Assembly: GCF_000007705.1 (NCBI RefSeq)
Contig: NC_005085.1
Coordinates: forward strand, 2,613,752-2,677,751
Reading direction: 5' to 3'
Length of the DNA: 64,000 nucleotides
DNA from: Chromobacterium violaceum ATCC 12472
Lineage (GTDB): Bacteria > Pseudomonadota > Gammaproteobacteria > Burkholderiales > Chromobacteriaceae
A model generated the notes under the pieces. That model had not been told where the DNA came from and searched no databases. It worked only from the letters and a program-made list of their open reading frames with translations. Both the position numbers and the translations under genes were made by a program. Every line of letters begins with the position of its first letter. The first letter of the stretch is position 1. Of this stretch, positions 5,746 to 24,600 are shown piece after piece.

Positions 5746-6195
5746 ATGAAAAAGAATCAGCCGTGGTGTGAATTCCCCTGCAGCCCTGACGATCTCGTCA
5801 GGGCTGTTTCGTTTGGTGACATTGAGGAAATGGCCGCCGAGCTCGGCGTCAGCGCGCAACAGCTGGCCTACTGGCGGCGTGGACGCGAGCCAGTGCCGCG
5901 CGTGGTCTACCTATGGCTGCGCCATCGCTCAGAAACGGTCCTAGGCGCGCAATACGGGCCGTTCACTGGGTTCCGGCTATGCGATCGCGGCGACGCCCTG
6001 GTATGCCCAGCAACAGGCATTCGGGTGAACCACGCAGACGTTGTGCGTCTTCCCGAGTACCGTCGCGCGCAATGCCTGATCGAGCAACAGTCAGCACTAA
6101 TTGAGCGGCTAATGATGGAGCGCGATTTCTACCGACGCAACTGCTTAAAACAAGCAAAATATGGCATGATCATCAATGCCTTAGTTCCGGACTAA
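5746..6195 (+). CDS. Small HTH DNA-binding protein, phage/mobile-element type
   Basis: 149 residues. Around 25-55, the segment EEMAAELGVSAQQLAYWRRG is a Cro/XRE-like helix-turn-helix, followed by PVPRVVYLWLRHRSE. The middle (VLGAQYGPFTGFRL) and the C-terminal helix (about 105-135, Gln/Glu/Arg-rich) could mediate oligomerisation. I cannot place it in a characterised family. Its stop overlaps the next gene by one base (TAATG), so the two are coupled. It starts 115 nt after dif, which would suit a regulator from an integrated element, but no integrase is present. Confidence 0.6.
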   Translation: MKKNQPWCEFPCSPDDLVRAVSFGDIEEMAAELGVSAQQLAYWRRGREPVPRVVYLWLRHRSETVLGAQYGPFTGFRLCDRGDALVCPATGIRVNHADVVRLPEYRRAQCLIEQQSALIERLMMERDFYRRNCLKQAKYGMIINALVPD

Positions 6196-12685: not shown

Positions 12686-12999
12686 GTGGGTGCCCATCCA
12701 ATTAGTCAAAATTATTTATTGAAAGATACCTTTGGGTGCTGTTGCGTAAGTCCTGGATAGGGTGAGCTCCCCTTTCTCAAATAGATTATCGAGTTTTCAC
12801 CGTCTTGCCACAACTTGTGGATTATCCGCGCGTTGCATGGGCATGGCGGGCAGCTCTGTAAGCGGCCCGCTTTGAACGGGAAATTTATTGGGTTTGATCC
12901 CGGCTTGTCGACATCCGGGTCCATTTGGCCGCCGATGAAACGGGACGGCAGCCAGGCACGACCAACCACGCAGGCATCGAGTTTTACCCGGGCATGGCG
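12686..12999. other. Intergenic region, possible insertion-sequence scar
   Basis: About 310 nt with no convincing gene. GGGTGCTGTTGCGTAAGTC at 12734-12752 resembles the terminal inverted repeat of IS5-group elements (GGCTTTGTTGCATAAATC type), but no transposase or partner end is present. Confidence 0.35.
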
Positions 13000-14067
13000 T
13001 CAGAAGCCACCGGCGATCAGCAATGCGAAAACGCCGTACAGGCCGCCGACCGCCACCAATGCACGGCCATCGACCGCGCCGCGTCGGAAATTGAACCAGA
13101 GAATGGCGATAGCCAAGGCCGTGACCGCGCCGGCGGCCAGCAAAGAGGCGTCGAGCAGCCAGGGGGTGAAGAAGAGCCCCAGCGCGCTGGGTATCGTGGC
13201 CTGAATCATCATTGCGCCGGAAATATTGGCCAAGGCCAGGCGCTCCTTGCCTTGGCGCACCCAGATAAGGGCATTCATGATTTCCGGCAGTTCTGTCGCC
13301 ACAGGACTAAGCAACAAGGCGGTCAGGTGCGCCGGCCAGCCGATGGCCAAACCGATGGCTTCCAGCTGCGCCACGAAGGTGTGGGAAGCCAGGCCGATGG
13401 CGATCAAGGCCAGCAGCGTCTGCAACAGCGGCCAGCCCAAAGAGGACTCATCAGCCGAGGGCCGGATTTTCAAGGGCTCAAGCGCCTCCTCGTCCTCCGA
13501 GGTTTCCGCATCGCGTACCTCGCGCCAGACATAGGCGGCATAAGCGGCCAAGAACACCAGGCCCAGCCAGGGCTTGATGGTGAAGGCGAACAGCCCCAGT
13601 GCGACCTTGAGCGCGAACACGCCGAAAAACGCCGCCTGGTCCCGGCTCAGCCGGACGTGGTCGGCCTGCGTCTGCCCATGGCCGCGGCCCAGGCGCTTGC
13701 GATTCGCCAGAAGGGTCAGCCCGACCACCGCATAGGCAAGCGTGGCAAGCACCAGGGGGCCGCCCATGGCCGCCCCGACGCCAAGGTCGCGTTGCTCCGG
13801 CGTGCTGCCGAACGCTACCGCCATCAGCGTCACCGCGCATTCAGGCAGCGCGGTGCCAAATGCGGCAAGCACCGATCCTATGGCGGTGGCGCCCAGGTTC
13901 AAGCGACGGCCCAGCCATTCAATGCCGTTGACGAAATATTCACAGGAGGCGTAGATCGCGCCGGCGGAGAGGAAAAACAGAACAAACGTGACAAACATGA
14001 AAGCCATCCAGCCGGGCAAGCGAAAACCGATGGCGCGCCATGCGGCTTGCCCGGCTGGCAAACGCAT
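13000..14067 (-). CDS. Sodium/calcium exchanger family (CaCA) membrane protein
   Basis: 355 residues from MRLPAG; MAFMF (14007) is another possible start, and neither has a clear SD. Two alpha-repeats define the family: GSVLAAFGTALPECAVTL near the N-terminus and LLLSPVATELPEIMNALIW in the second half, each with the acidic ion-binding residue. About ten membrane segments, with an acidic cytoplasmic loop (ETSEDEEALEPLK) between the halves. It probably exchanges Ca2+ or another cation for Na+/H+. The long + strand frame at 12925-14121 is its antisense shadow. Confidence 0.85.
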   Translation of the reverse strand: MRLPAGQAAWRAIGFRLPGWMAFMFVTFVLFFLSAGAIYASCEYFVNGIEWLGRRLNLGATAIGSVLAAFGTALPECAVTLMAVAFGSTPEQRDLGVGAAMGGPLVLATLAYAVVGLTLLANRKRLGRGHGQTQADHVRLSRDQAAFFGVFALKVALGLFAFTIKPWLGLVFLAAYAAYVWREVRDAETSEDEEALEPLKIRPSADESSLGWPLLQTLLALIAIGLASHTFVAQLEAIGLAIGWPAHLTALLLSPVATELPEIMNALIWVRQGKERLALANISGAMMIQATIPSALGLFFTPWLLDASLLAAGAVTALAIAILWFNFRRGAVDGRALVAVGGLYGVFALLIAGGF

Positions 14068-14291
14068 CGCGGCCAAAGGTCTTGCCTGACTTGCCTTGCG
14101 GTTAAGCGCAATACAAGCTGACCACGCCATGAGGCGTGAGGCCTCAAGTTTGTTGACGTGGACTTCCCGGGCTGGCCGGGAAAGGCTACTCCCCAATGAC
14201 TGAGCGACAGATACTATCAGCTGATTGACTCGGCGGCCAGACACCGGCGATTGATCAACCACAGACTTCCCTGGATGATGATCGAAGAGGT

Positions 14292-14310
14292 AAAATGACA
14301 AAGTCATTTT
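14292..14310. repeat. Inverted repeat upstream of secreted protein gene
   Basis: AAAATGAC-AAA-GTCATTTT, a perfect 8-bp inverted repeat 13 nt before the ATG of the next gene. Could be an operator or a small hairpin. Confidence 0.4.
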
Positions 14311-14323
14311 TCGGACGGGCGTC

Positions 14324-14722
14324 ATGCGGTCAAAAATCTTGTTGGCATCAACCATCGCGTTGCTCAGCAGCCATGTCGGCGCGCAAGTCCTGGAATGCGT
14401 CGGCGGCGGCAGGGTTGAATTCACCAATGCAACCGAGTGCCCCAGTGGTTTCAAACCCAAGCGCGCCTTGCAGCTCAACGAGAACTACCCGCCTCCGCCG
14501 CCGGCTCGCGCCCATCCCTACAGCAGCCCCCAACCCGTCTACACGCGCCCTATCATTGCCCAGAGTCCCCTGCCTGCGCAGCCGTCATGCGAAACGCTGC
14601 GCTCATGGCGCGACTACTACATGGCCCAGATGGAGCCAAAGAACAACTCCACCATCCAAGACCTGTTCACCAAGCTGCGCGACGTGCAGGACAAGATGAA
14701 CCGCCAGGGTTGCCGCATCTAA
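14324..14722 (+). CDS. Small secreted Cys/Pro-rich protein, unknown function
   Basis: 132 residues with a signal peptide (MRSKILLASTIALLSSHVGAQ). The mature protein begins VLECVGGGRVEFTNATECPSG, a short beta segment with a likely disulfide that resembles DUF4124-type domains. A proline-rich linker (YPPPPPARAHPYSSPQP) follows, then a helical end with two more Cys (CETLRSW, NRQGC). Probably periplasmic. No operon partners; convergent with the RHS toxin gene. Confidence 0.7.
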   Translation: MRSKILLASTIALLSSHVGAQVLECVGGGRVEFTNATECPSGFKPKRALQLNENYPPPPPARAHPYSSPQPVYTRPIIAQSPLPAQPSCETLRSWRDYYMAQMEPKNNSTIQDLFTKLRDVQDKMNRQGCRI

Positions 14723-14762: not shown

Positions 14763-15932
14763 CTAGGCCAGTCCACCCCAAGCCGGCGGGGGATATCCCT
14801 CCGTCTGCTCTATGATCTCTCTCTGGGCTGGCGACCGCCTGAATGAAACAGGATTGCCATGCGCGATACGGAAAAACTCCAGATCCGCGAAAATATTGAC
14901 GCCCTCGATGATCGCCTGGTCAGGGTATCGCTCCACGGCTTGAGCAAAACGTATCCGCGCCTCGGCGTCTGGAAAATTACGCACCTCCGCGGATATCCGC
15001 CTGAGCGCAGCAACGGCATGCCCCTGAACGGTCACCTCTCCTCGAAAACCAGTAACGGTTTGCATTGAATTTATCGGCAAATCTCCGGCGACTGGCAAAT
15101 TTCTCACAAATGCCCGCGCCAGATTTACCGAGTTGCAGGTTATAAACCTGATAGCATCGTAATCTGCCAGATCCACGCCTACGGCGTCGAGAAGTTCGAG
15201 CAGTGTGCGGGCATTGAATGTTCGTCCATTTATGAAGATGAGATCGGGATTCCTCCCATGCGCCCAGATGTTCAGCCGCAATCCATTCTGAAAATGATCT
15301 TCGAATACTACAGACATCATCGAGTCGGGATTCGCCCCTCTTCTCGCCGTACGGCCAAGCGCGGCAACGAACCTGAATTCGCTATCCAGATCCATCACCA
15401 TGGAATCGCTGGCTTTCCCTGACTGCCTGAGGGCTCGGTGTCCTGTGGAGACCAGTCCCGCACCCAGTGACAGCATCCCCGCGGATAGCGACACCCATCC
15501 CAAGACAGATGACGCTGTCGGATGGCTCGCGCCAACCGTCTCGCTCGCGATTGCCGCCGCATCCGCCACCACGGCGGCTCCGCCTATCGCCAACGATGCG
15601 GCAGAGGCGCTTTCCAGCGCAGAGATCATGCCGCCGGCGGCGGCAATCGAGCTGCCTGCGGTATAGGCCGCCAGCGCCAAACCTGCCGCGGCCAAGCCAA
15701 TCCCCGCCCAGGCTTGCCAGCTCAGATGCCCAGAGGGGTCGGCCCGATTGACCGGGTCTCCGCTGCAATAGGCGTAGGAATTGATCCCGCCGGCGCCAAA
15801 TGGACTCAGACTGTCCGGGCAATGAAAACGCATCAATGCCGGACTGTAGGCTCGGCAACCCTTTCCGAGGAGAGCGAATCCGCGTGCCGGGTCAAGGCGC
15901 TCCCCATTAAACCCCAATACACCACGGCTCAT
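14763..15932 (-). CDS. Orphan RHS C-terminal toxin with clan-CD-like His/Cys domain
   Basis: 389 residues from ATG 15932, chosen over 15959 because AGGGGGAA lies just upstream. Residues ~18-69 are the end of an RHS core (LLGKGCRAYSPALMRF, NSYAYCSGDPVNRADPSGH). Residues ~70-170 are a hydrophobic Ala/Gly linker like the one at nt 3-240. The variable C-terminal domain contains LNIWAHGRN (H225) and AIRFITCNSVN (C266). A strand ending in HG and a second strand ending in a Cys about 40 residues later is the arrangement of clan-CD proteases such as C80 autoprocessing domains and CHAT. No RHS repeats precede it and no same-strand immunity gene follows, so this is a displaced toxin tip or a cassette donor. 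Confidence 0.75.
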   Translation of the reverse strand: MSRGVLGFNGERLDPARGFALLGKGCRAYSPALMRFHCPDSLSPFGAGGINSYAYCSGDPVNRADPSGHLSWQAWAGIGLAAAGLALAAYTAGSSIAAAGGMISALESASAASLAIGGAAVVADAAAIASETVGASHPTASSVLGWVSLSAGMLSLGAGLVSTGHRALRQSGKASDSMVMDLDSEFRFVAALGRTARRGANPDSMMSVVFEDHFQNGLRLNIWAHGRNPDLIFINGRTFNARTLLELLDAVGVDLADYDAIRFITCNSVNLARAFVRNLPVAGDLPINSMQTVTGFRGEVTVQGHAVAALRRISAEVRNFPDAEARIRFAQAVERYPDQAIIEGVNIFADLEFFRIAHGNPVSFRRSPAQREIIEQTEGYPPPAWGGLA

Positions 15933-16097
15933 GATTTCCCCCTGCAAGCAAAACCGCAATCAGCGATCGCACTATTCATGACCCCGCCAGACCCGGCTGC
16001 GAGTCATGAGTAAAATCAGATATTTCCGCCGATAAAAGACCCGACTGGCGGACTATCCTGCGTTCAGTAGAATGCATCCCAGGGGAGCGACAAGGCC

Positions 16098-17364: not shown

Positions 17365-17713
17365 CGGCGATTATCGTGAGCTGAGTATGCGCGGATCGGA
17401 TGGATCATGCGAGTCTTCAGCGCAACACAGGCCTGTCCTCATTCCGACCAATGAGCATTTCTCACGACGCGGTCTATTTTCCGGCCGCGCCGCAATGTTT
17501 TTTCACGTCTTGCGGTAGCGAAAAAAACAGCATTTCTCTTCATGGCAAACCAGCAACTGTCCTAATTGACAGTCATGCTTCAGAGTATTGCCTGGCGAAG
17601 GTTTCATCTGGGCGCGCTCCGCATGCTTGAATGATTTTTATGTGAACGGACTTGTCTGAAAATGTTCCAGTGCATGAAAATGCGGCCGAATCTGAATTGC
17701 ACCTTGAGCCTGA
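17365..17713. other. Regulatory gap upstream of the lipid operon
   Basis: 349 nt without a gene, AT-richer than its surroundings. It holds the lux-box-like palindrome at 17556-17573 and presumably the promoter of the seven-gene operon. An open frame at 17400-17630 has no recognisable features. Confidence 0.6.
17556..17573. promoter_or_regulatory. CviR/LuxR-type lux box candidate
   Basis: ACTGTC-CTAATT-GACAGT is a perfect 6+6 inverted repeat. Its core CTGTCCTAATTGACAG fits the CviR consensus as I recall it, CTGNCCNNNNGGNCAG, at 9 of 10 fixed positions. It overlaps a TTGACA (17566-17571) that could be a -35 box. It lies 141 nt before the first gene of the lipid operon. This suggests, but does not prove, acyl-homoserine-lactone control. 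Confidence 0.6.
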
Positions 17714-18685
17714 ATGAATTTGATTGCAACCGGCAAAGCACTGCCGAGCCATCCCGTCACCGCTGACGATCTTGACATCAAGCTTGGCTGCCGCCGCGGC
17801 CATACCCTGAAGAAAAGCGGCGTCCACACCCGGCATTTCGCCGGCGACCACGAGTCGCAAAGCCTGCTGGGCGCCCGCGCGCTGAACGATGCTTTGGCGC
17901 GCGCGGCAATGCAAGCGTCGGAGATAGACTTGCTGATCGGCGCCTGCGGCATTCCGGAGCAGGCCTTGCCCGGCACCGCCAGCTTCATCGCCCATGCCGC
18001 CGGGCTGCCCGCCGGCCTGCCCGCTTTCGACGTCAATACCAGTTGTCTCAGCTTTCTGTCCGCGCTGCAGGTGGCGGACAGCCTGTTGCTGTCGGGCGCG
18101 TATCGCCGAATTGCCATCGTATCGGCCGACCTGGCCTCGCGCGGCCTGAACTGGGCCGATCCCGAGGCTTCGCTGATCTTCGGCGATGGGGCGGCGGCGG
18201 CCATCGTCGAGCGCTCGGCGCCGGGCCACGGCCTGAAGACTTTCAAGCTGGCCACCTATCCGGAAGGCCGCAACTTCTGCGAGATACGCGCGGGCGGCAC
18301 CCAGCGCAACCCGCGCCGCGGCGTCGCGGACGGGGATTTCCTGTTCGACATGAACGGCAAGGCGGTTTTCAAGCTGGCATCGCGATTGATGCCGGACTTC
18401 CTGGATGCGTTGATGGATGCCACGCCGGGCGGACTGAACAGCATAGATTGCGTGGTGCCCCATCAGGCCAGCCACCTGGGCATGCAGCACATGGCCAAGC
18501 GCCTGGGCATCGCCGCCGGCCGCATCGTCGACATCTACGCCTCGCACGGCAACCAGGTGGCGGCCTCGCTGCCCACCGCGCTGCACGAGGCCTTTGTCGA
18601 CGGCCGCGCCCGCGCCGGCAAGCGCCTGCTGATGGTGGGCACGGCGGCGGGCCTCAACCTGGGCGGGCTGGTATGGGATCTGTGA
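17714..18685 (+). CDS. KASIII-like / OleA-like ketoacyl synthase
   Basis: 323 residues with the full KASIII triad: Cys111 in DVNTSCLSFL, His250 in VPHQASHLGM, Asn280 in SHGNQVAAS, spaced as in FabH. Family-typical GDGAAAAIV and C-terminal GTAAGLNLGGLVW are present. FabH-fold enzymes of this branch join an acyl-CoA or acyl-ACP to a second acyl unit; OleA, the condensing enzyme of olefin synthesis, is one. First gene of the seven-gene unit; the reductase gene overlaps its end. It is not the housekeeping fabH, which normally sits with plsX/fabD. Confidence 0.85.
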   Translation: MNLIATGKALPSHPVTADDLDIKLGCRRGHTLKKSGVHTRHFAGDHESQSLLGARALNDALARAAMQASEIDLLIGACGIPEQALPGTASFIAHAAGLPAGLPAFDVNTSCLSFLSALQVADSLLLSGAYRRIAIVSADLASRGLNWADPEASLIFGDGAAAAIVERSAPGHGLKTFKLATYPEGRNFCEIRAGGTQRNPRRGVADGDFLFDMNGKAVFKLASRLMPDFLDALMDATPGGLNSIDCVVPHQASHLGMQHMAKRLGIAAGRIVDIYASHGNQVAASLPTALHEAFVDGRARAGKRLLMVGTAAGLNLGGLVWDL

Positions 18686-19692
18686 CGCGGGTGCTGGTCA
18701 CCGGCGCCACCGGCGGCCTGGGGCGCAATGCCGTCGCCCACTTGCTGGACAGGGGATGCGCGGTGCGCGCCACTGGGCGCAACCTGGCTGCGGGCCGCGA
18801 ACTGGCGGCTGCGGGCGCGGAATTCGTCGCGCTGGATCTGGCCGCCGCGGGTGAAAGCGAGCTAGCGGACCTGATGGACGGCGTGGACGCGGTATGGCAT
18901 TGCGCCGCGCTTTCCGCGCCCTGGGGACGCGAAGCCGATTTCGCCGCCGCCAACGCGCTGGCCACGGGAAAACTGCTGGATGCCGCCGGCGCGTCGCGCG
19001 CCAGCCGCTTCATCCACGTTTCCACGCCGGCGCTGTATTTCGATTTCCGCCATCGCTACAACGTGCCGGAGGCGTTCCGCCCGCGCCGCTTCGTCAACGC
19101 CTATGCCCGCACCAAGGCGCAGGCCGAGGACAAGGTGCAGGAGGCGACGCGCGCCTATCCCGCGCTGCGGACCACCATTTTGCGGCCGAGGGCCATTTTC
19201 GGAGAGCACGATCAGGTGCTGATGCCCAGGCTGGCGCGCATGCTGAGCCGGCGCGGCGGGCGCCTGCCGCTGCCGCGCGGCGGCGCGGCGACGCTGGATC
19301 TGACCTATGTCGGCAACGTGGTTCACGCGATGTGGCTGGCCACCTCGCATCCAGACCTCGCCAGCGGATTGGCGTTCAACATCACCAACCAGCAGCCTGT
19401 CATGCTGCGCGACGCGCTGACGCGGGTGTTCGTCCAGGAGCTGGGCCAGCCGCTGCGCATCGTCACCCTGCCCTACCCCTTGCTGAGCGCGGCCAGCCGA
19501 CTGGCGCAGCTGTGGGCTGCGGTCACCGGCAGGGAACCGGCATTGACGCCTTACAGCCTGGGCGCGATTCATTTCGACATGACGCTGGACAACACCCAGG
19601 CCCGCGAGGTGCTGGGCTATCTGCCGCCGTACAGCCTGGACCAAGGCCTGGCGCGCACCGCGCGCTGGCTGCGGGAGCGCGGGCATGGCTAA
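18673..19692 (+). CDS. Extended SDR, 3beta-HSD/OleD-like NAD(P)-dependent reductase
   Basis: 339 residues from ATG 18673; GTG 18682, which overlaps the previous stop as GTGA, is an alternative start. Rossmann motif VLVTGATGGLGRNAV at the N-terminus, VWHCAAL after strand 4 and an active-site YARTK (YxxxK) near 150. The substrate half resembles sterol dehydrogenase/OleD enzymes, which reduce a 2-alkyl-3-ketoacid to the hydroxyacid. A natural partner for the condensing enzyme upstream. The longer frame back to 18043 is an artefact of the overlap. Confidence 0.85.
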   Translation: MGSVTRVLVTGATGGLGRNAVAHLLDRGCAVRATGRNLAAGRELAAAGAEFVALDLAAAGESELADLMDGVDAVWHCAALSAPWGREADFAAANALATGKLLDAAGASRASRFIHVSTPALYFDFRHRYNVPEAFRPRRFVNAYARTKAQAEDKVQEATRAYPALRTTILRPRAIFGEHDQVLMPRLARMLSRRGGRLPLPRGGAATLDLTYVGNVVHAMWLATSHPDLASGLAFNITNQQPVMLRDALTRVFVQELGQPLRIVTLPYPLLSAASRLAQLWAAVTGREPALTPYSLGAIHFDMTLDNTQAREVLGYLPPYSLDQGLARTARWLRERGHG

Positions 19693-20494
19693 CGTCACCG
19701 CCTTCAGCGTCGGGCATTGCACCCACCCCGCCTGCATGGCGCTCAAGGGCGCGGGGCTGGCCAGCCGCTGCTTCCCGTCGCGCGCCTACCTGATCGAAAC
19801 CCGAAATCGCTTGCTGCTGTGGGACACCGGCTATTCCGAGCATTTCTTCGATGCCAGCCGCCGCGGCGCCTACCGGCTGTATCCGTTGGTGACGCCGGTG
19901 CATTTCGACGATGCCCGTTCGCTGCGCGAGCAGCTGCGCGCCCACGGAATCGGGCCAAACGATATACACACATTATTGCTGTCGCACTTTCACGCCGACC
20001 ATATCGCCGGCCTGCGCGACTTTCCCCGCGCCCGCATCCTGGCCTCGGAGCCAGGTTGGCGCGCGGTGCGCGGGCTGAGCGGGCTGGCCGCGGTGCGGCA
20101 GGCCTTTCTACCCGGCCTGCTGCCGCCCGACATGGAAAGCCGGCTGTCCTTCGTCGAGGCCTTTGCCTTACAAGCGCTGCCAGCCGATCTGGCACCGTTC
20201 AGCCATGGCCGCGACGTCAGCGGCTGCGGCGAAGTGTTCGTGGTCGACCTGCCCGGACATGCGGCCGGCCACCTGGGGGCCTTCGTGCTGGGCGATGCGG
20301 GCTGGACGCTGCTGGCCTCGGACGCTGCGTGGTCGGAGGAAGGCTACCGGGAGATGCGCGGCCCATCGGAGCTGTCCTTTCTGGTTCAGCACAGTCGCCG
20401 GTCTTACTACGACACGCTGGCCAGGCTGCATGCGCTGCATCGCGGCGGCCGCGTGGATATCCTGTTGACCCACCAGGAGGAGACGCCGTGCTGA
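19685..20494 (+). CDS. Metallo-beta-lactamase fold hydrolase
   Basis: 269 residues. LLLSHFHADHIAGL supplies the HxHxDH metal motif, VDLPGHAAGHLG the next His, ASDAAW the bridging Asp, and LTHQEE closes the active site, as in lactonase-like MBL enzymes (AiiA/YtnP branch). It overlaps the reductase gene by 8 nt and the adenylating-enzyme gene by 7 nt. In the pathway it could hydrolyse a thioester, lactone or ester intermediate. Since the operon carries a lux box, degradation of an acyl-homoserine lactone is also conceivable, though the context favours a biosynthetic role. Confidence 0.83.
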   Translation: MANVTAFSVGHCTHPACMALKGAGLASRCFPSRAYLIETRNRLLLWDTGYSEHFFDASRRGAYRLYPLVTPVHFDDARSLREQLRAHGIGPNDIHTLLLSHFHADHIAGLRDFPRARILASEPGWRAVRGLSGLAAVRQAFLPGLLPPDMESRLSFVEAFALQALPADLAPFSHGRDVSGCGEVFVVDLPGHAAGHLGAFVLGDAGWTLLASDAAWSEEGYREMRGPSELSFLVQHSRRSYYDTLARLHALHRGGRVDILLTHQEETPC

Positions 20495-21777
20495 GGCTGA
20501 TCCGCATTCTGGCAGCCTACTGGCGCGCCCGGCGGCTGCATTTCCGCGACCGCGCGGCGCTGGAACGCCACCAGGCCCGGCAGATGGGCCGTTTCCTGGC
20601 CCGTCTGCGCCGGCGCAGCCCCTATTTCGCCAAGCTGGGCGCGCTTCCCTTCGCGCAGTGGCCGCGGATGGACAAGGCCGCGATGCTCGCGCATTTCGAC
20701 GACATGAACGCGGCGGGGCTGAAGCTGGACGAGGTGATGGACGCCGCGCTGCGCGCGGAGCGCAGCCGCGACTTTTCGCCCACGCTGAACGGCCATACCG
20801 TGGGCCTGTCGTCCGGCACGTCCGGCCAGCGCGGCGCTTTCGTCGTCAGCAAGAGCGAGCAGGCGCAGTGGGCCGGCATCATGCTGGCCAAGGCGCTGCC
20901 AGACGGTTTGCTGGCCGGCGAAAGGGTGGCGCTGTTCCTGCGCGCCAACAGCAATCTCTATAGCGCGGTGCGCAGCCGCTGGCTGACATTCCGCTTCTTC
21001 GACCTGTTTCAGCCGCTGGACGGACATTTGCCGCCGCTGAGCGAATACGCGCCCACCATTCTGCTGGCGCCGGCCCAGGTGCTGCGCGCGCTGGCGCTGG
21101 CCCAGTTGGACGGCCGGCTGAGGCTGTCGCCCAAGCGGGCGTATTCGATCGCCGAAGTGCTGGAGCCGCAGGACCGCGCGCTGATCGAACAGGCCTTCGG
21201 CCGCGTGCACGAGATCTACCAGGCGACCGAGGGTTTTCTCGGCAGCAGCTGCGAATACGGCACGCTGCACTTGAACGAGGAATACATCCATGTCGAGCCG
21301 GAATGGCTGGACGCGGAAAAACGCCGCTTCGTGCCGGTGATCACCGATTTCAGCCGCCTAACCCAACCCATCGTCCGCTACCGGCTGAACGACGTGCTGC
21401 AGGCGCGCGCCGAGCCCTGTCCCTGCGGGCGGGCGGCGATGGCGCTGGACGCGGTGGAGGGCCGCTGCGACGACATGCTGCGCCTGCCGGGCCGCGATGG
21501 CGGCGAGCTGACGGTGTTCGCCGACGTGATGGGGCGCGCGCTGGCGACCGCCCTCCCGCGGGAAGCCGATTACCGGCTGCGCCAGACCGGGCCGGCAGAG
21601 CTGGCGCTGGACGCCGACGTGCCGGCGGCGTCATTGCCCGCCATCCGCCGCTGCCTGGAACAAACGCTGGCCGGCCTGGGCGTGGATGCCGAGGCGCTGC
21701 GATGGACGCTGTCCAACCACGTTCCGGCCATGGACGCCACGCGCAAGCGCCGGCGCATTGTCAGGGCGTTCGCATGA
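20488..21777 (+). CDS. F390-synthetase-like adenylate-forming enzyme
   Basis: 429 residues from GTG 20488, supported by AGGAGG at 20475-20480 and the tight overlap with the MBL gene. Adenylation motifs: GLSSGTSGQRGAF (phosphate loop, about 107-119), EIYQATEGFLG, QPIVRYRLNDVL and EGRCDDML. It is closest to the F390-synthetase-related branch (PaaK-like fold), distinct from the classical OleC ligases. It should activate a carboxylic acid as the acyl-AMP. This is the step that could drive lactone, ester or amide formation from the hydroxyacid made upstream. Confidence 0.82.
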   Translation: MLRLIRILAAYWRARRLHFRDRAALERHQARQMGRFLARLRRRSPYFAKLGALPFAQWPRMDKAAMLAHFDDMNAAGLKLDEVMDAALRAERSRDFSPTLNGHTVGLSSGTSGQRGAFVVSKSEQAQWAGIMLAKALPDGLLAGERVALFLRANSNLYSAVRSRWLTFRFFDLFQPLDGHLPPLSEYAPTILLAPAQVLRALALAQLDGRLRLSPKRAYSIAEVLEPQDRALIEQAFGRVHEIYQATEGFLGSSCEYGTLHLNEEYIHVEPEWLDAEKRRFVPVITDFSRLTQPIVRYRLNDVLQARAEPCPCGRAAMALDAVEGRCDDMLRLPGRDGGELTVFADVMGRALATALPREADYRLRQTGPAELALDADVPAASLPAIRRCLEQTLAGLGVDAEALRWTLSNHVPAMDATRKRRRIVRAFA

Positions 21778-22397
21778 GGCGCGCGCTGGATGGCTTGCCG
21801 CCCAGGCTGCGCCACCTGCTGCTGGGCTGGGCTTCAGTAGGCTGCGCGTATTCGCTGGGCAGCCTGTGGCCGCGGCGCGCGATCGTCCTGCCCGAGCTGC
21901 CCGTGGATCGCTGGATTCCCTTCGACCCGGCGGCGATCTGGCTGTACGCGTCGTTTTTCCTGATCGTGCCCGTGGCCTACCTGTTCGCTCGTCCGGAAAA
22001 GTTGGCCTGGCTGCAGCGCGCGATGCAGCTGTGCGCGCTGGCCGCGGGCGCGGTGTTCCTGCTGTGCCCGACCACCCTGGCCTACCCGCCCATCGTCGGG
22101 GATGGCTGGCATGCCGAGGCGCTGCGCGTCTTCCTGCGCTTCGACACCCCGCACAACTGCCTGCCCTCGCTGCACGGCGCGCTGACCGCCTTGTCCGCCT
22201 GGGCCTTGTGGGCCGGCCGCCGCCGGCTGCGCTCCTGGCTGGCGCTGGCGTGGGCGCTGGCCATCCTGTTCGCCGTGATCCAACTGCGCCGCCATTTGTT
22301 CATCGACCTGTCCGCCGGCGTGGCGCTGGGGCTGCTTTGCGGCCTGCTGGCGGCGCGGCCGGCAACTGTTTTCAATTTTTCTTATCAACGCACATGA
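21774..22397 (+). CDS. PAP2-superfamily membrane protein
   Basis: 207 residues, about six membrane segments. CLPSLHGAL matches the PSxxH motif and LRRHLFIDLSAG the RxxxxxHxxxD-type motif in reduced form; the first classical KxxxxxxRP motif is not obvious. The arrangement suits the inositol-phosphorylceramide-synthase-like PAP2 branch that moves phospho-headgroups on lipids. ATGA overlaps with both neighbours. It may dephosphorylate a lipid intermediate or attach a headgroup to the product. Confidence 0.75.
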   Translation: MRRALDGLPPRLRHLLLGWASVGCAYSLGSLWPRRAIVLPELPVDRWIPFDPAAIWLYASFFLIVPVAYLFARPEKLAWLQRAMQLCALAAGAVFLLCPTTLAYPPIVGDGWHAEALRVFLRFDTPHNCLPSLHGALTALSAWALWAGRRRLRSWLALAWALAILFAVIQLRRHLFIDLSAGVALGLLCGLLAARPATVFNFSYQRT

Positions 22398-23491
22398 ACG
22401 TATTCGCCCTCACCTTCGCCGTCATGCTGGCGGTCGTGCTGCTGGAGCTGTTCGCCCTGCGCTACTGGCGCAGAGAGGCCATTCCCTGGCGCGAAATCAT
22501 CTTCAACCTCAATTCCGGCCACATCGTGATGTGGGTGTTCCGCGGCGTGGAGGTGGCGGGGTTCGGCTTGCTGCTGCAATACGCCAACCTGCACCTGGTG
22601 GACCGGCTGCCGGTGTTCTGGCAGTGGGTTTTCGCATTCATCGCCTGGGACCTGAGCTTTTACTGCATGCACCGGGCCCACCATACCTGGCGCATCTTCT
22701 GGGCGGTGCACGTGGTGCACCACCAGGGCGAGCATTTCAGCCTGTCGCTGGGCATACGCAATTCCTGGTATTCCTCGCTGACCTCGTTTCTTTTCGTCGC
22801 GCCGCTGGCCGTGCTGGGCCTGCCGCTGGAGATGTTCGTCGCCGCATCGTCTTTTCATTACGCGGTGCAGCTGTACAACCATAATGCCTTCGTCGGCAAG
22901 AGCGGCTGGCTGGACCGGGTGCTGGTGACGCCGTCCAACCATCGCGTCCACCATGCGATGCATCCGGCGTACCTGAACAAGAATTTCGGCGGCACCTTCC
23001 TGATCTGGGACAAGCTGTTCGGCAGCTATCAGGCCGAGCGCGACGACATCCCGCTGCGCTACGGCGTGAGCGGCGCCTCGCCCGGCTACAATCCGTTCTG
23101 GGCCAGCAACCAGGGGCTGCTGGCCTGGACCCGGCGCCGCTTCGGCGGCGCGGAAGGGCGCGCGCCGCGCCTGCCCGCCGCCTACATCGCCACCGGCGGG
23201 ATCTTGCTGTTCGGCATGGTGATCTATTACGTGGACCGGGTGGCTGGCTGGGACGCCGTCGGCAAATGGAGCGTATTCGCCTGCCTGGTAGCCGGCACCA
23301 TCGCCATAGGCGGCATGTCGGATCAGCGGCGTTGGGGCTGGATGGGCTGGCTGGCGCTGACGCTGGCGATGCCGGCCCTGTGCGCAGGCCTGTTCGGCAT
23401 CCGCGACGGCTGGGCGCTGTGCCTGCTGGCGCTGCTGCTGGTCCACGGTCTGGCCGGACTTCGCCTGCGGGAGGCCGCATGGGCAAACTGA
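22394..23491 (+). CDS. Sterol desaturase / fatty acid hydroxylase family di-iron enzyme
   Basis: 365 residues, membrane-embedded. Three histidine boxes are clear: HRAHH, HVVHHQGEH and NHRVHHAMH. They coordinate the two irons that perform O2-dependent hydroxylation or desaturation of a lipid chain. The C-terminal ~110 residues add extra membrane segments beyond the minimal family. ATGA overlap with the PAP2 gene and a 13-nt overlap with the desaturase gene. Probably hydroxylates the acyl chain or ring of the operon's product. Confidence 0.87.
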   Translation: MNVFALTFAVMLAVVLLELFALRYWRREAIPWREIIFNLNSGHIVMWVFRGVEVAGFGLLLQYANLHLVDRLPVFWQWVFAFIAWDLSFYCMHRAHHTWRIFWAVHVVHHQGEHFSLSLGIRNSWYSSLTSFLFVAPLAVLGLPLEMFVAASSFHYAVQLYNHNAFVGKSGWLDRVLVTPSNHRVHHAMHPAYLNKNFGGTFLIWDKLFGSYQAERDDIPLRYGVSGASPGYNPFWASNQGLLAWTRRRFGGAEGRAPRLPAAYIATGGILLFGMVIYYVDRVAGWDAVGKWSVFACLVAGTIAIGGMSDQRRWGWMGWLALTLAMPALCAGLFGIRDGWALCLLALLLVHGLAGLRLREAAWAN

Positions 23492-24552
23492 GATTCCGCT
23501 CGTCGGCGCAGCTGCCGTTCCGGGTCGACCTGCAACGCGCCGCCCAAGACTATCTGGCAGAGCGCGGCGACCATCGCTTCGCAGACTGGCGGGTGGGACT
23601 GAAGGGCGCGGCGCTGGCCGCCCTCAGCCTGGGCTGCTACGCGCTGGCGCTGAGCGCGACGACGATGTGGACGTTCGCGCCGGCCTATATCGCCGCCATC
23701 GTCCTGGCCATGCTGCTGGCGATGAACAGCCTGCACGACGCCGCGCACGGCGCGCTGTTCCGCAGCGCCGCGCTCAACCGCCTGCTGACCCGCGCCGCAA
23801 GCCTGCCGATGGGCATAGACGCCGATATCTGGACCCGGCGCCACGTGCATCTGCACCACACCTACCCCAATGTCGACGGCTACGATCTGGACATCGAGCC
23901 CAATCCCTTCCTGAGGCAAACCCCATTCCAAAACTGGTCGCCGCAATTCCGCTTTCAGCACCGTTACTGGCCGCTGGTGGCGGCGCTGTCCCTGCCCTAT
24001 CTGTGCTGGTATGGCGACTGGTTGGACCTGCTGGGCAAGAGCAAGCTCAGACAATACGACAGCCAGCCAATTCCCGCGGCGGGATTCCTGCTGGGCAAGC
24101 TGGGACACTTGGTCCTGCTGCTGGCGTTGCCCTGGTACTGCCTGCCGGCCGGCACGATCAGCTGGGGGGGGCTGCTGCTGTGCTACCTGGCCGGCCTGAT
24201 GACGGCTTCCTGCTTCCTGGTGGCGATGATTCTGGGCACGCACTGGGCGGAAGTGGAGTTTTTCCGGCCCGAGGGCATGGAAATGCCGCACACCTGGCAC
24301 GAGCACCAGTTCCTGACCTGCTGCGACTGGCTACCCAGGCCGCAGGCGCTGGGGCATTTGCTGGGCGGGCTGCATCTGCATCTCACCCATCATCTGTTCC
24401 CCGCTTACAGCCATCGCCACTATCCGGCGCTGGCGCGCATCGTTGAGGAGCTGGCATGCCGGCACGGCCTGCCCTACCGCCGCATCGGCTACCAGGGCCT
24501 CTGGCGCGCGCAGCAAAACTTCCTGCGGGCCATGGGGCGACGGCCGGATTGA
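23479..24552 (+). CDS. Membrane fatty acid desaturase
   Basis: 357 residues from ATG 23479. Histidine boxes: HDAAHG, HVHLHHTYPN and HLHLTHHLFP, the order of acyl-lipid/acyl-CoA front-end type desaturases (PF00487). Several membrane segments lie between the boxes. Last gene of the seven-gene operon, followed 20 nt later by a strong terminator. It would introduce a double bond in the acyl substrate or product. Confidence 0.88.
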   Translation: MGKLRFRSSAQLPFRVDLQRAAQDYLAERGDHRFADWRVGLKGAALAALSLGCYALALSATTMWTFAPAYIAAIVLAMLLAMNSLHDAAHGALFRSAALNRLLTRAASLPMGIDADIWTRRHVHLHHTYPNVDGYDLDIEPNPFLRQTPFQNWSPQFRFQHRYWPLVAALSLPYLCWYGDWLDLLGKSKLRQYDSQPIPAAGFLLGKLGHLVLLLALPWYCLPAGTISWGGLLLCYLAGLMTASCFLVAMILGTHWAEVEFFRPEGMEMPHTWHEHQFLTCCDWLPRPQALGHLLGGLHLHLTHHLFPAYSHRHYPALARIVEELACRHGLPYRRIGYQGLWRAQQNFLRAMGRRPD

Positions 24553-24571: not shown

Positions 24572-24600
24572 AACGCCCGCGGCGCATCGCGGGCGTTTTG
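24572..24600 (+). terminator. Strong rho-independent terminator after the lipid operon
   Basis: Perfect 10-bp stem AACGCCCGCG/CGCGGGCGTT (24572-24581/24588-24597) followed by TTTTG. Its reverse also has an A-rich side, so it may work for the convergent gene as well. Confidence 0.88.

Follow-up and report, generated by a model that had tools for sequence, protein, structure and literature searches.

A seven-gene putative lipid operon of Chromobacterium violaceum with a modular four-enzyme core

The window analysed here is a stretch of 64,000 nucleotides from Chromobacterium violaceum ATCC 12472 (contig NC_005085.1, positions 2,613,752–2,677,751 of the forward strand), which carries at 17714–24552 seven open reading frames (ORFs) on the + strand that very probably constitute one dedicated lipid pathway. 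Pfam and NCBIfam calls assigned them, in order, to a FabH-clade β-ketoacyl synthase III (KAS), an extended short-chain dehydrogenase/reductase (SDR), a metallo-β-lactamase-fold hydrolase (MBL), a PaaK-class adenylating enzyme (ANL) and three membrane enzymes of the PAP2, FA_hydroxylase (FAH) and FA_desaturase (DES) families. These calls bear out the families and coordinates named in an earlier sequence-only reading of the stretch, as well as the lipid chemistry that it proposed for the set. The ORF coordinates likewise confirm its description of a tight operon, in which all neighbours overlap by 4–13 nt. Our preferred explanation, to which we assign a probability of roughly 0.4, is a dedicated lipid operon in two layers, a soluble four-enzyme core and a set of membrane tailoring enzymes, which would at times have been transferred between lineages.

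A species-level genome collection was scanned with an ANL alignment, which confirmed at least 549 relatives, and the best 80 by ANL similarity were kept. Since these loci were chosen as the nearest by ANL, the fraction with all seven genes is biased towards close relatives. KAS, SDR, MBL and ANL were found in this order in 76/80 loci and all seven genes in 60/80, of which 57 follow the order of the window and the remaining three (L064, L068 and L088) have DES at the front. Some of the 20 loci short of seven genes end at a contig edge, e.g. L046, L066 and L085. Across the loci, median junction gaps range from −16 to +4 nt, and the seven proteins show correlated pairwise divergence (r 0.77–0.96; 55 loci). 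Recurrence of the same gene order in 57 of the 80 loci is more than chance, and the neighbourhood search thereby located the same set elsewhere. Three full-length loci without KAS (L067, L069 and L070) have a KAS relative, 44–49% identical, elsewhere in each genome; in Budvicia, this relative sits beside PAP2 and DES, with parts of the set at two loci, and in the other two genomes no further operon gene was seen within ~1.5 kb of the relative. The conserved order, the correlated divergence and the retention of the parts of the set in two loci in Budvicia all support the claim of a single pathway. Active-site residues are kept in all seven families (65–81 sequences each, after removal of any that fell short of 70% of the length of the window protein).

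Among the genera represented in the 80 loci are Chromobacterium, Aquitalea, Janthinobacterium, Cupriavidus, Burkholderia, Paraburkholderia, Ralstonia, Pectobacterium, Serratia, Erwinia, Rahnella, Providencia, Pseudomonas, Escherichia, Citrobacter, Klebsiella, Snodgrassella and Gilliamella. The core-gene tree, viewed in pruned form and with no support values considered, follows taxonomy for the most part; there are some transfers, for example Snodgrassella and an Azoarcus metagenome-assembled genome among gammaproteobacteria. The gene family is rare in evenly drawn samples, with 2/369 genomes of the class and 7/398 of the phylum at E≤1e-60, the own genome counted. Within Chromobacterium, 4/19 species genomes, again including the own one, are over the cut-off, and KAS is 82–93% identical to its counterparts in C. 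piscinae, C. vaccinii and C. subtsugae. The phage collection returned distant KAS matches only (20 records; the five listed are 27–32% identical), and PADLOC gave no match for the six proteins scanned, i.e. all except ANL.

The operon is also present in 672/5,426 complete Escherichia coli genomes, with matches that span at least 80% of its length in 671, and the carriers include the probiotic Nissle 1917, Seattle 1946 (ATCC 25922) and an O25b:H4-ST131 strain. In Nissle 1917 (L044), it starts 111 bp past narI (junction at 5889–6001) and stops 16 bp short of the rttR small RNA/tRNA-Tyr (12882–12899); in K-12, the operon is absent from the narI–rttR interval. The genes narH and narI lie upstream of KAS, 0.14–1.14 kb away, in 12/80 loci, so that read-through from nitrate reductase is possible in some. 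The patchy presence in both Chromobacterium species and E. coli is ill-suited to a housekeeping role, such as an ordinary adjustment of membrane fatty acids by an extra FabH and a desaturase that yields no separate product. The set does contain a FabH-like KAS and an acyl desaturase, but this explanation, which leaves no obvious place for the adenylating enzyme, the MBL, the FAH and the PAP2, is very unlikely.

The KAS (17714–18685; 323 aa) is over the cut-offs of PF08541 and PF08545, and its triad C111–H250–N280 is intact in 76/76 proteins. Compared with E. coli FabH, the triad is retained, R151 and R249 are not, and W32 is mostly replaced by Tyr; these three residues have functional roles in FabH. 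The sequence-only reading had regarded this protein as OleA-like, which the following results do not support. Among solved structures, KAS scores 177 bits against MxnB, 172 against CorB, up to 156 against FabH entries and 53 against entry 3s23, an OleA according to PMC5724707. At the position of the catalytic Glu of OleA (E117 in Xanthomonas campestris OleA), Leu is found in 75/76 KAS proteins (L85 in the window protein) and Ile in 1/76, whereas the four proteins that represent the OleA model, one per locus in L125–L128, have Glu; two antisense ORFs in this alignment were disregarded as non-OleA. The Glu of OleA and PpyS serves head-to-head condensation, and MxnB and CorB have Val in its place (PMC4578411). 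The KAS accordingly carries the combination that marks MxnB/CorB-type ketosynthases, namely a CHN triad plus a hydrophobic side chain in place of the OleA/PpyS Glu; that residue does not separate MxnB from FabH, because E. coli FabH has Phe there. Against NF006720, which we take to be the OleA model, KAS reaches 92 bits for a cut-off of 285, and the own genome has no match to this model at E≤1e-60. Membership of KAS in OleA was rejected on the basis of the residue at the Glu position.

The SDR (18673–19692), an OleD/3β-hydroxysteroid dehydrogenase-like extended enzyme with Y144-xxx-K148, is over the cut-offs of PF01370 and PF01073. It starts either at ATG 18673, which overlaps KAS by 13 nt, or at GTG 18682, with an overlap of 4 nt. 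OleD is its best NCBIfam match, in line with the earlier label of OleD-like reductase, but the score of 145 bits is far under the cut-off of 580. The protein is, furthermore, 45% identical to proteins annotated as YbjS in E. coli records. The MBL (19685–20494; overlap of 8 nt) is over the cut-off of PF00753, all ligands of its metal site are present (HxHxDH, H192, D213 and H263), and its nearest curated models are lactonases. At its N-terminus (residues 10–17, window 19712–19735), a GxCxHxxC motif lies outside the classical metal site, with G10, C12, H14 and C17 present in 79/79 sequences. The ANL (20488–21777; overlap of 7 nt) is over the cut-off of TIGR02304 ('F390 synthetase-related'), with 510 bits for 252, and K420 is conserved; the title of the family names no reaction. 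Its predicted model (predicted local distance difference test, pLDDT, 91.1) has NatL2, AjiA1 and PaaK as nearest structures, tied by Z, so that both the TIGR02304 score and the fold liken it to PaaK-class ligases (PaaK, NatL2, AjiA1 and ClxA). NatL2 is described as a PaaK-class enzyme that forms an ester (PMC7204872), and the ANL acceptor therefore need not be coenzyme A.

Together, a ketosynthase, an OleD-like reductase and an adenylating enzyme in one operon resemble OleABCD, and the sequence-only reading had proposed an alternative version of that pathway. The condense–reduce–activate logic fits KAS, SDR and ANL, and the OleD models are the best NCBIfam matches of the SDR. However, Leu or Ile replaces the OleA Glu throughout, the OleA and OleD models score under their cut-offs, the ANL belongs to TIGR02304 with PaaK-class relatives and is thus of another adenylating class, and three membrane tailoring enzymes are added. 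Moreover, no OleB α/β-hydrolase was called among the seven proteins by Pfam or NCBIfam, and hence no olefin step is visible. An OleABCD-type pathway is, consequently, quite improbable. What survives of the proposal is a reasonable parallel in the reduce-and-activate logic, and OleABCD is not a family that contains the operon; equating MBL with OleB and ANL with OleC is likewise an analogy only.

The operon PqsABCDE also unites KASIII, MBL and ANL proteins. The operon of the window differs from it by a single KAS, the SDR and the membrane enzymes; by gene set, the MBL is reminiscent of the thioesterase PqsE. This likeness of ANL, KAS and MBL to PqsA, PqsD and PqsE is one variant of a scheme in which two chains would be condensed to a pyrone, a furanone or another small lipophilic signal or antibiotic, to be hydroxylated and desaturated later; here, ANL would act first, KAS second and MBL as the thioesterase. 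The other variant would follow MxnB and CorB of the myxopyronin and corallopyronin pathways, which are the nearest solved relatives of KAS and share its CHN triad. These two enzymes fuse two chains into a pyrone, and their Val is comparable with the Leu of KAS at the Glu position (PMC4578411 and PMC5724707 for the fusion, PMC4578411 for the Val). Against this scheme, the similarity to MxnB is modest, with FabH entries close behind, and ketone reduction by the SDR that follows KAS would oppose pyrone closure. Neither a type I polyketide synthase nor any visible pyrone logic is found among the seven genes, and the three membrane tailoring enzymes, together with the GT21 glycosyltransferases of relatives described below, point to a membrane lipid. 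We therefore hold a two-chain product of this kind to be unlikely.

The membrane layer begins with PAP2 (21774–22397; PAP2_3; overlap of 4 nt), which is over the cut-off of PF14378 and just under that of PF01569. Canonical PAP2 lipid phosphatases carry the motifs KX6RP, PSGH and SRX5HX3D. In the PAP2 proteins of the loci, KX6RP and SRX5HX3D are found in 0/71, PSLH in 71/71, and PSGH in 1/71 (L116, near the C-terminus and beside its own PSLH); the window protein has PSLH and HX3D. All three canonical motifs were present in the part of PgpB used as a control. Foldseek ranked inositol-phosphorylceramide (IPC) synthase, a sphingomyelin synthase (SMS)-related protein (SMSr) and Aur1 first to third for the predicted PAP2 model (pLDDT 91.8). 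In the VIA comparison, these three were tied by Z with the LpxE phosphatase, which a sequence profile slightly favours. A plain phosphatase is doubtful, and PAP2 is a candidate sphingolipid-synthase-like head-group transferase. The FAH (22394–23491; overlap of 4 nt), of the FA_hydroxylase (sterol desaturase) superfamily, is over the cut-off of PF04116 with 88 bits, and H93, H97, H106, H109, H110, H183, H186 and H187 are present in 67/67 sequences; its sole NCBIfam match is OlsE, with 73 bits for a cut-off of 475. The DES (23479–24552; overlap of 13 nt) is over the cut-off of PF00487 and retains its three His boxes (H86/H90, H122/H126/H127 and H301/H304/H305) in 65/65 sequences. Sequence searches of the PDB with FAH and DES returned nothing useful.

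The four-gene core is modular, and its tailoring genes are exchangeable. A plasmid collection contained 67 records with an ANL match, 10 of which were opened, and the KAS–SDR–MBL–ANL core was present in 9/10, including Alphaproteobacteria and Bacillota. PAP2, FAH and DES accompany it in two of these nine (E. coli and Burkholderia stagnalis) and are missing from the other seven. In the latter, the core is found with ATP-grasp and GNAT proteins in Paenibacillus and Paraburkholderia, with ATP-grasp only in Pontibacillus, with a weak GNAT match and an ATP-grasp gene on the opposite strand in Roseateles, adjoined by a divergent sulfotransferase in Ketogulonicigenium and Paracoccus, and with a 530-aa protein of no assigned family in Pseudomonas sp. 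FeN3W. The pMPPla107 megaplasmid of Pseudomonas amygdali has a lone TIGR02304 gene (L039, 9968–11266), and no other core gene is annotated in the 21 kb opened around it. In Paenibacillus urinalis (L041, 5848–12414), KAS is over the cut-off of NF005541 (PRK07204; 425 for 402) and the ATP-grasp protein is near that of NF005315 (PRK06849; 364 for 406); on these scores, NF005541, NF005315 and TIGR02304 may belong to one system.

The ATP-grasp and GNAT partners bear on a further explanation, in which KAS, SDR and MBL would supply a 3-hydroxy fatty acid that ANL couples to an amine, giving an N- or O-acyl amino lipid akin to ornithine lipids, with FAH as a hydroxylase in an OlsE-like role. The OlsE match of FAH and the presence of both partners beside the core in Paenibacillus and Paraburkholderia speak for such a lipid. 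Yet the family calls for the seven proteins include no OlsB/OlsA-like acyltransferase, and neither ATP-grasp nor GNAT was observed in operons with all seven genes; we give an amino lipid a low probability.

Gene clusters at the 80 loci were derived with a simple ORF caller and BLAST linkage, with one representative of each scanned for families, so that the GT21/HpnI-like and UGT-like calls rest on the proteins of L123. A member of the GT21/HpnI-like cluster is present in 9/80 loci, eight of which also have the UGT-like cluster and three PAP2. At L123 (10325–14183), the core is followed by a second OleD-like SDR, the HpnI/GT21-like glycosyltransferase, a 193-aa protein with no Pfam or NCBIfam match, and the UGT-like glycosyltransferase. 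Such glycosyltransferases after the core are as expected for a hydroxylated lipid. As a separate observation, a predicted metal-dependent hydrolase (PF10118, 276 bits) lies at the operon end in Paraburkholderia (L068, 12070–12933); across the 80 loci, five proteins fall into its cluster.

Members of the FA_hydroxylase, desaturase and GT21 superfamilies decorate sphingolipids. Because of these families, the GT21 of relatives and the fold ranking of PAP2, a more specific product may be considered: a sphingolipid-like membrane lipid whose synthesis would bypass serine palmitoyltransferase, for which the core would build a hydroxylated backbone to be decorated, much like ceramide in eukaryotes, by an Aur1/SMS-like transferase, FAH, DES and, in some enteric bacteria, GT21. 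No serine palmitoyltransferase-like enzyme is among the seven proteins, the rest of the genome not having been searched for one. We put this product forward as a speculative and rather improbable form of the lipid.

For the two-layer lipid operon, we infer the substrates, the order of the steps and the product as follows. The KAS, of the FabH clade and the MxnB/CorB kind, would condense acyl thioesters, probably bound to acyl carrier protein, to a β-keto product, which the MBL would free from the thioester. The SDR would reduce the ketone to give a β-hydroxy acid, and the ANL would adenylate this acid or a partner acid and couple it to an acceptor, which could be a thiol, an alcohol or an amine. 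In the membrane layer, PAP2 may act as a phospho-head-group transferase of the IPC/sphingomyelin-synthase fold, or as a phosphatase, while FAH would put on a hydroxyl and DES would put in a double bond. No product of the gene set was recognised in the open-access literature among the best-ranked matches and with guessed C. violaceum locus tags, which agrees with the earlier statement that none is characterised and is weak evidence of absence.

Downstream of DES, a terminator-like hairpin (24572–24597, +; 11 pairs, 8 of them G-C) may mark the operon end. It is supportive by position only, because the scan gave 7 such sites for 5.8 expected. Approximately 140 bp upstream of the KAS start, the 19-bp near-palindrome AACTGTCCTAATTGACAGT (17555–17573) is a candidate operator. 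This block is kept in C. violaceum, C. piscinae and C. vaccinii, with diverged flanks, and it has a single exact match in the own genome, the next best carrying three mismatches; it was not seen upstream of the operon in C. subtsugae and Aquitalea. A CviR quorum-sensing box at 17557–17572 was considered, with one mismatch to the consensus, and dropped, as such matches are common in the window (10, for a shuffle mean of 5.2; 3/100 shuffles reach 10) and the site carries two mismatches in both close sister species. Interpretation of the palindrome as a LexA-type CTGTN8ACAG site was similarly rejected, as it occurs only in two close Chromobacterium relatives; upstream of KAS, this pattern was found for 2/75 genes (75 KAS genes of the 80 loci), with ~0.4 expected. 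Further upstream, a Manganese (yybP-ykoY) riboswitch was detected at 14044–14206 (−; 59.7 bits); it adjoins, upstream, the calcium/sodium-antiporter domain of the ORF at 13000–14478 (−), the true start of which is therefore probably well inside. The ORF at 14763–15959 (−), in which an Rhs repeat-associated core domain lies close to the N-terminus, is apparently a C-terminal piece of Rhs without the long Rhs body.

As sampled in RefSeq, a pathway without an assigned product is thus present in approximately one in eight complete E. coli genomes. Knowledge of the product would assign a function to the TIGR02304 family and would show what the modular KASIII–SDR–MBL–ANL core makes across Proteobacteria and Bacillota. 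The product is possibly a new class of membrane lipid in the best-studied bacterium. If the sphingolipid-like reading is true, the producers of such a lipid would be E. coli (Nissle 1917 and ST131), Pseudomonas, Serratia and Chromobacterium.

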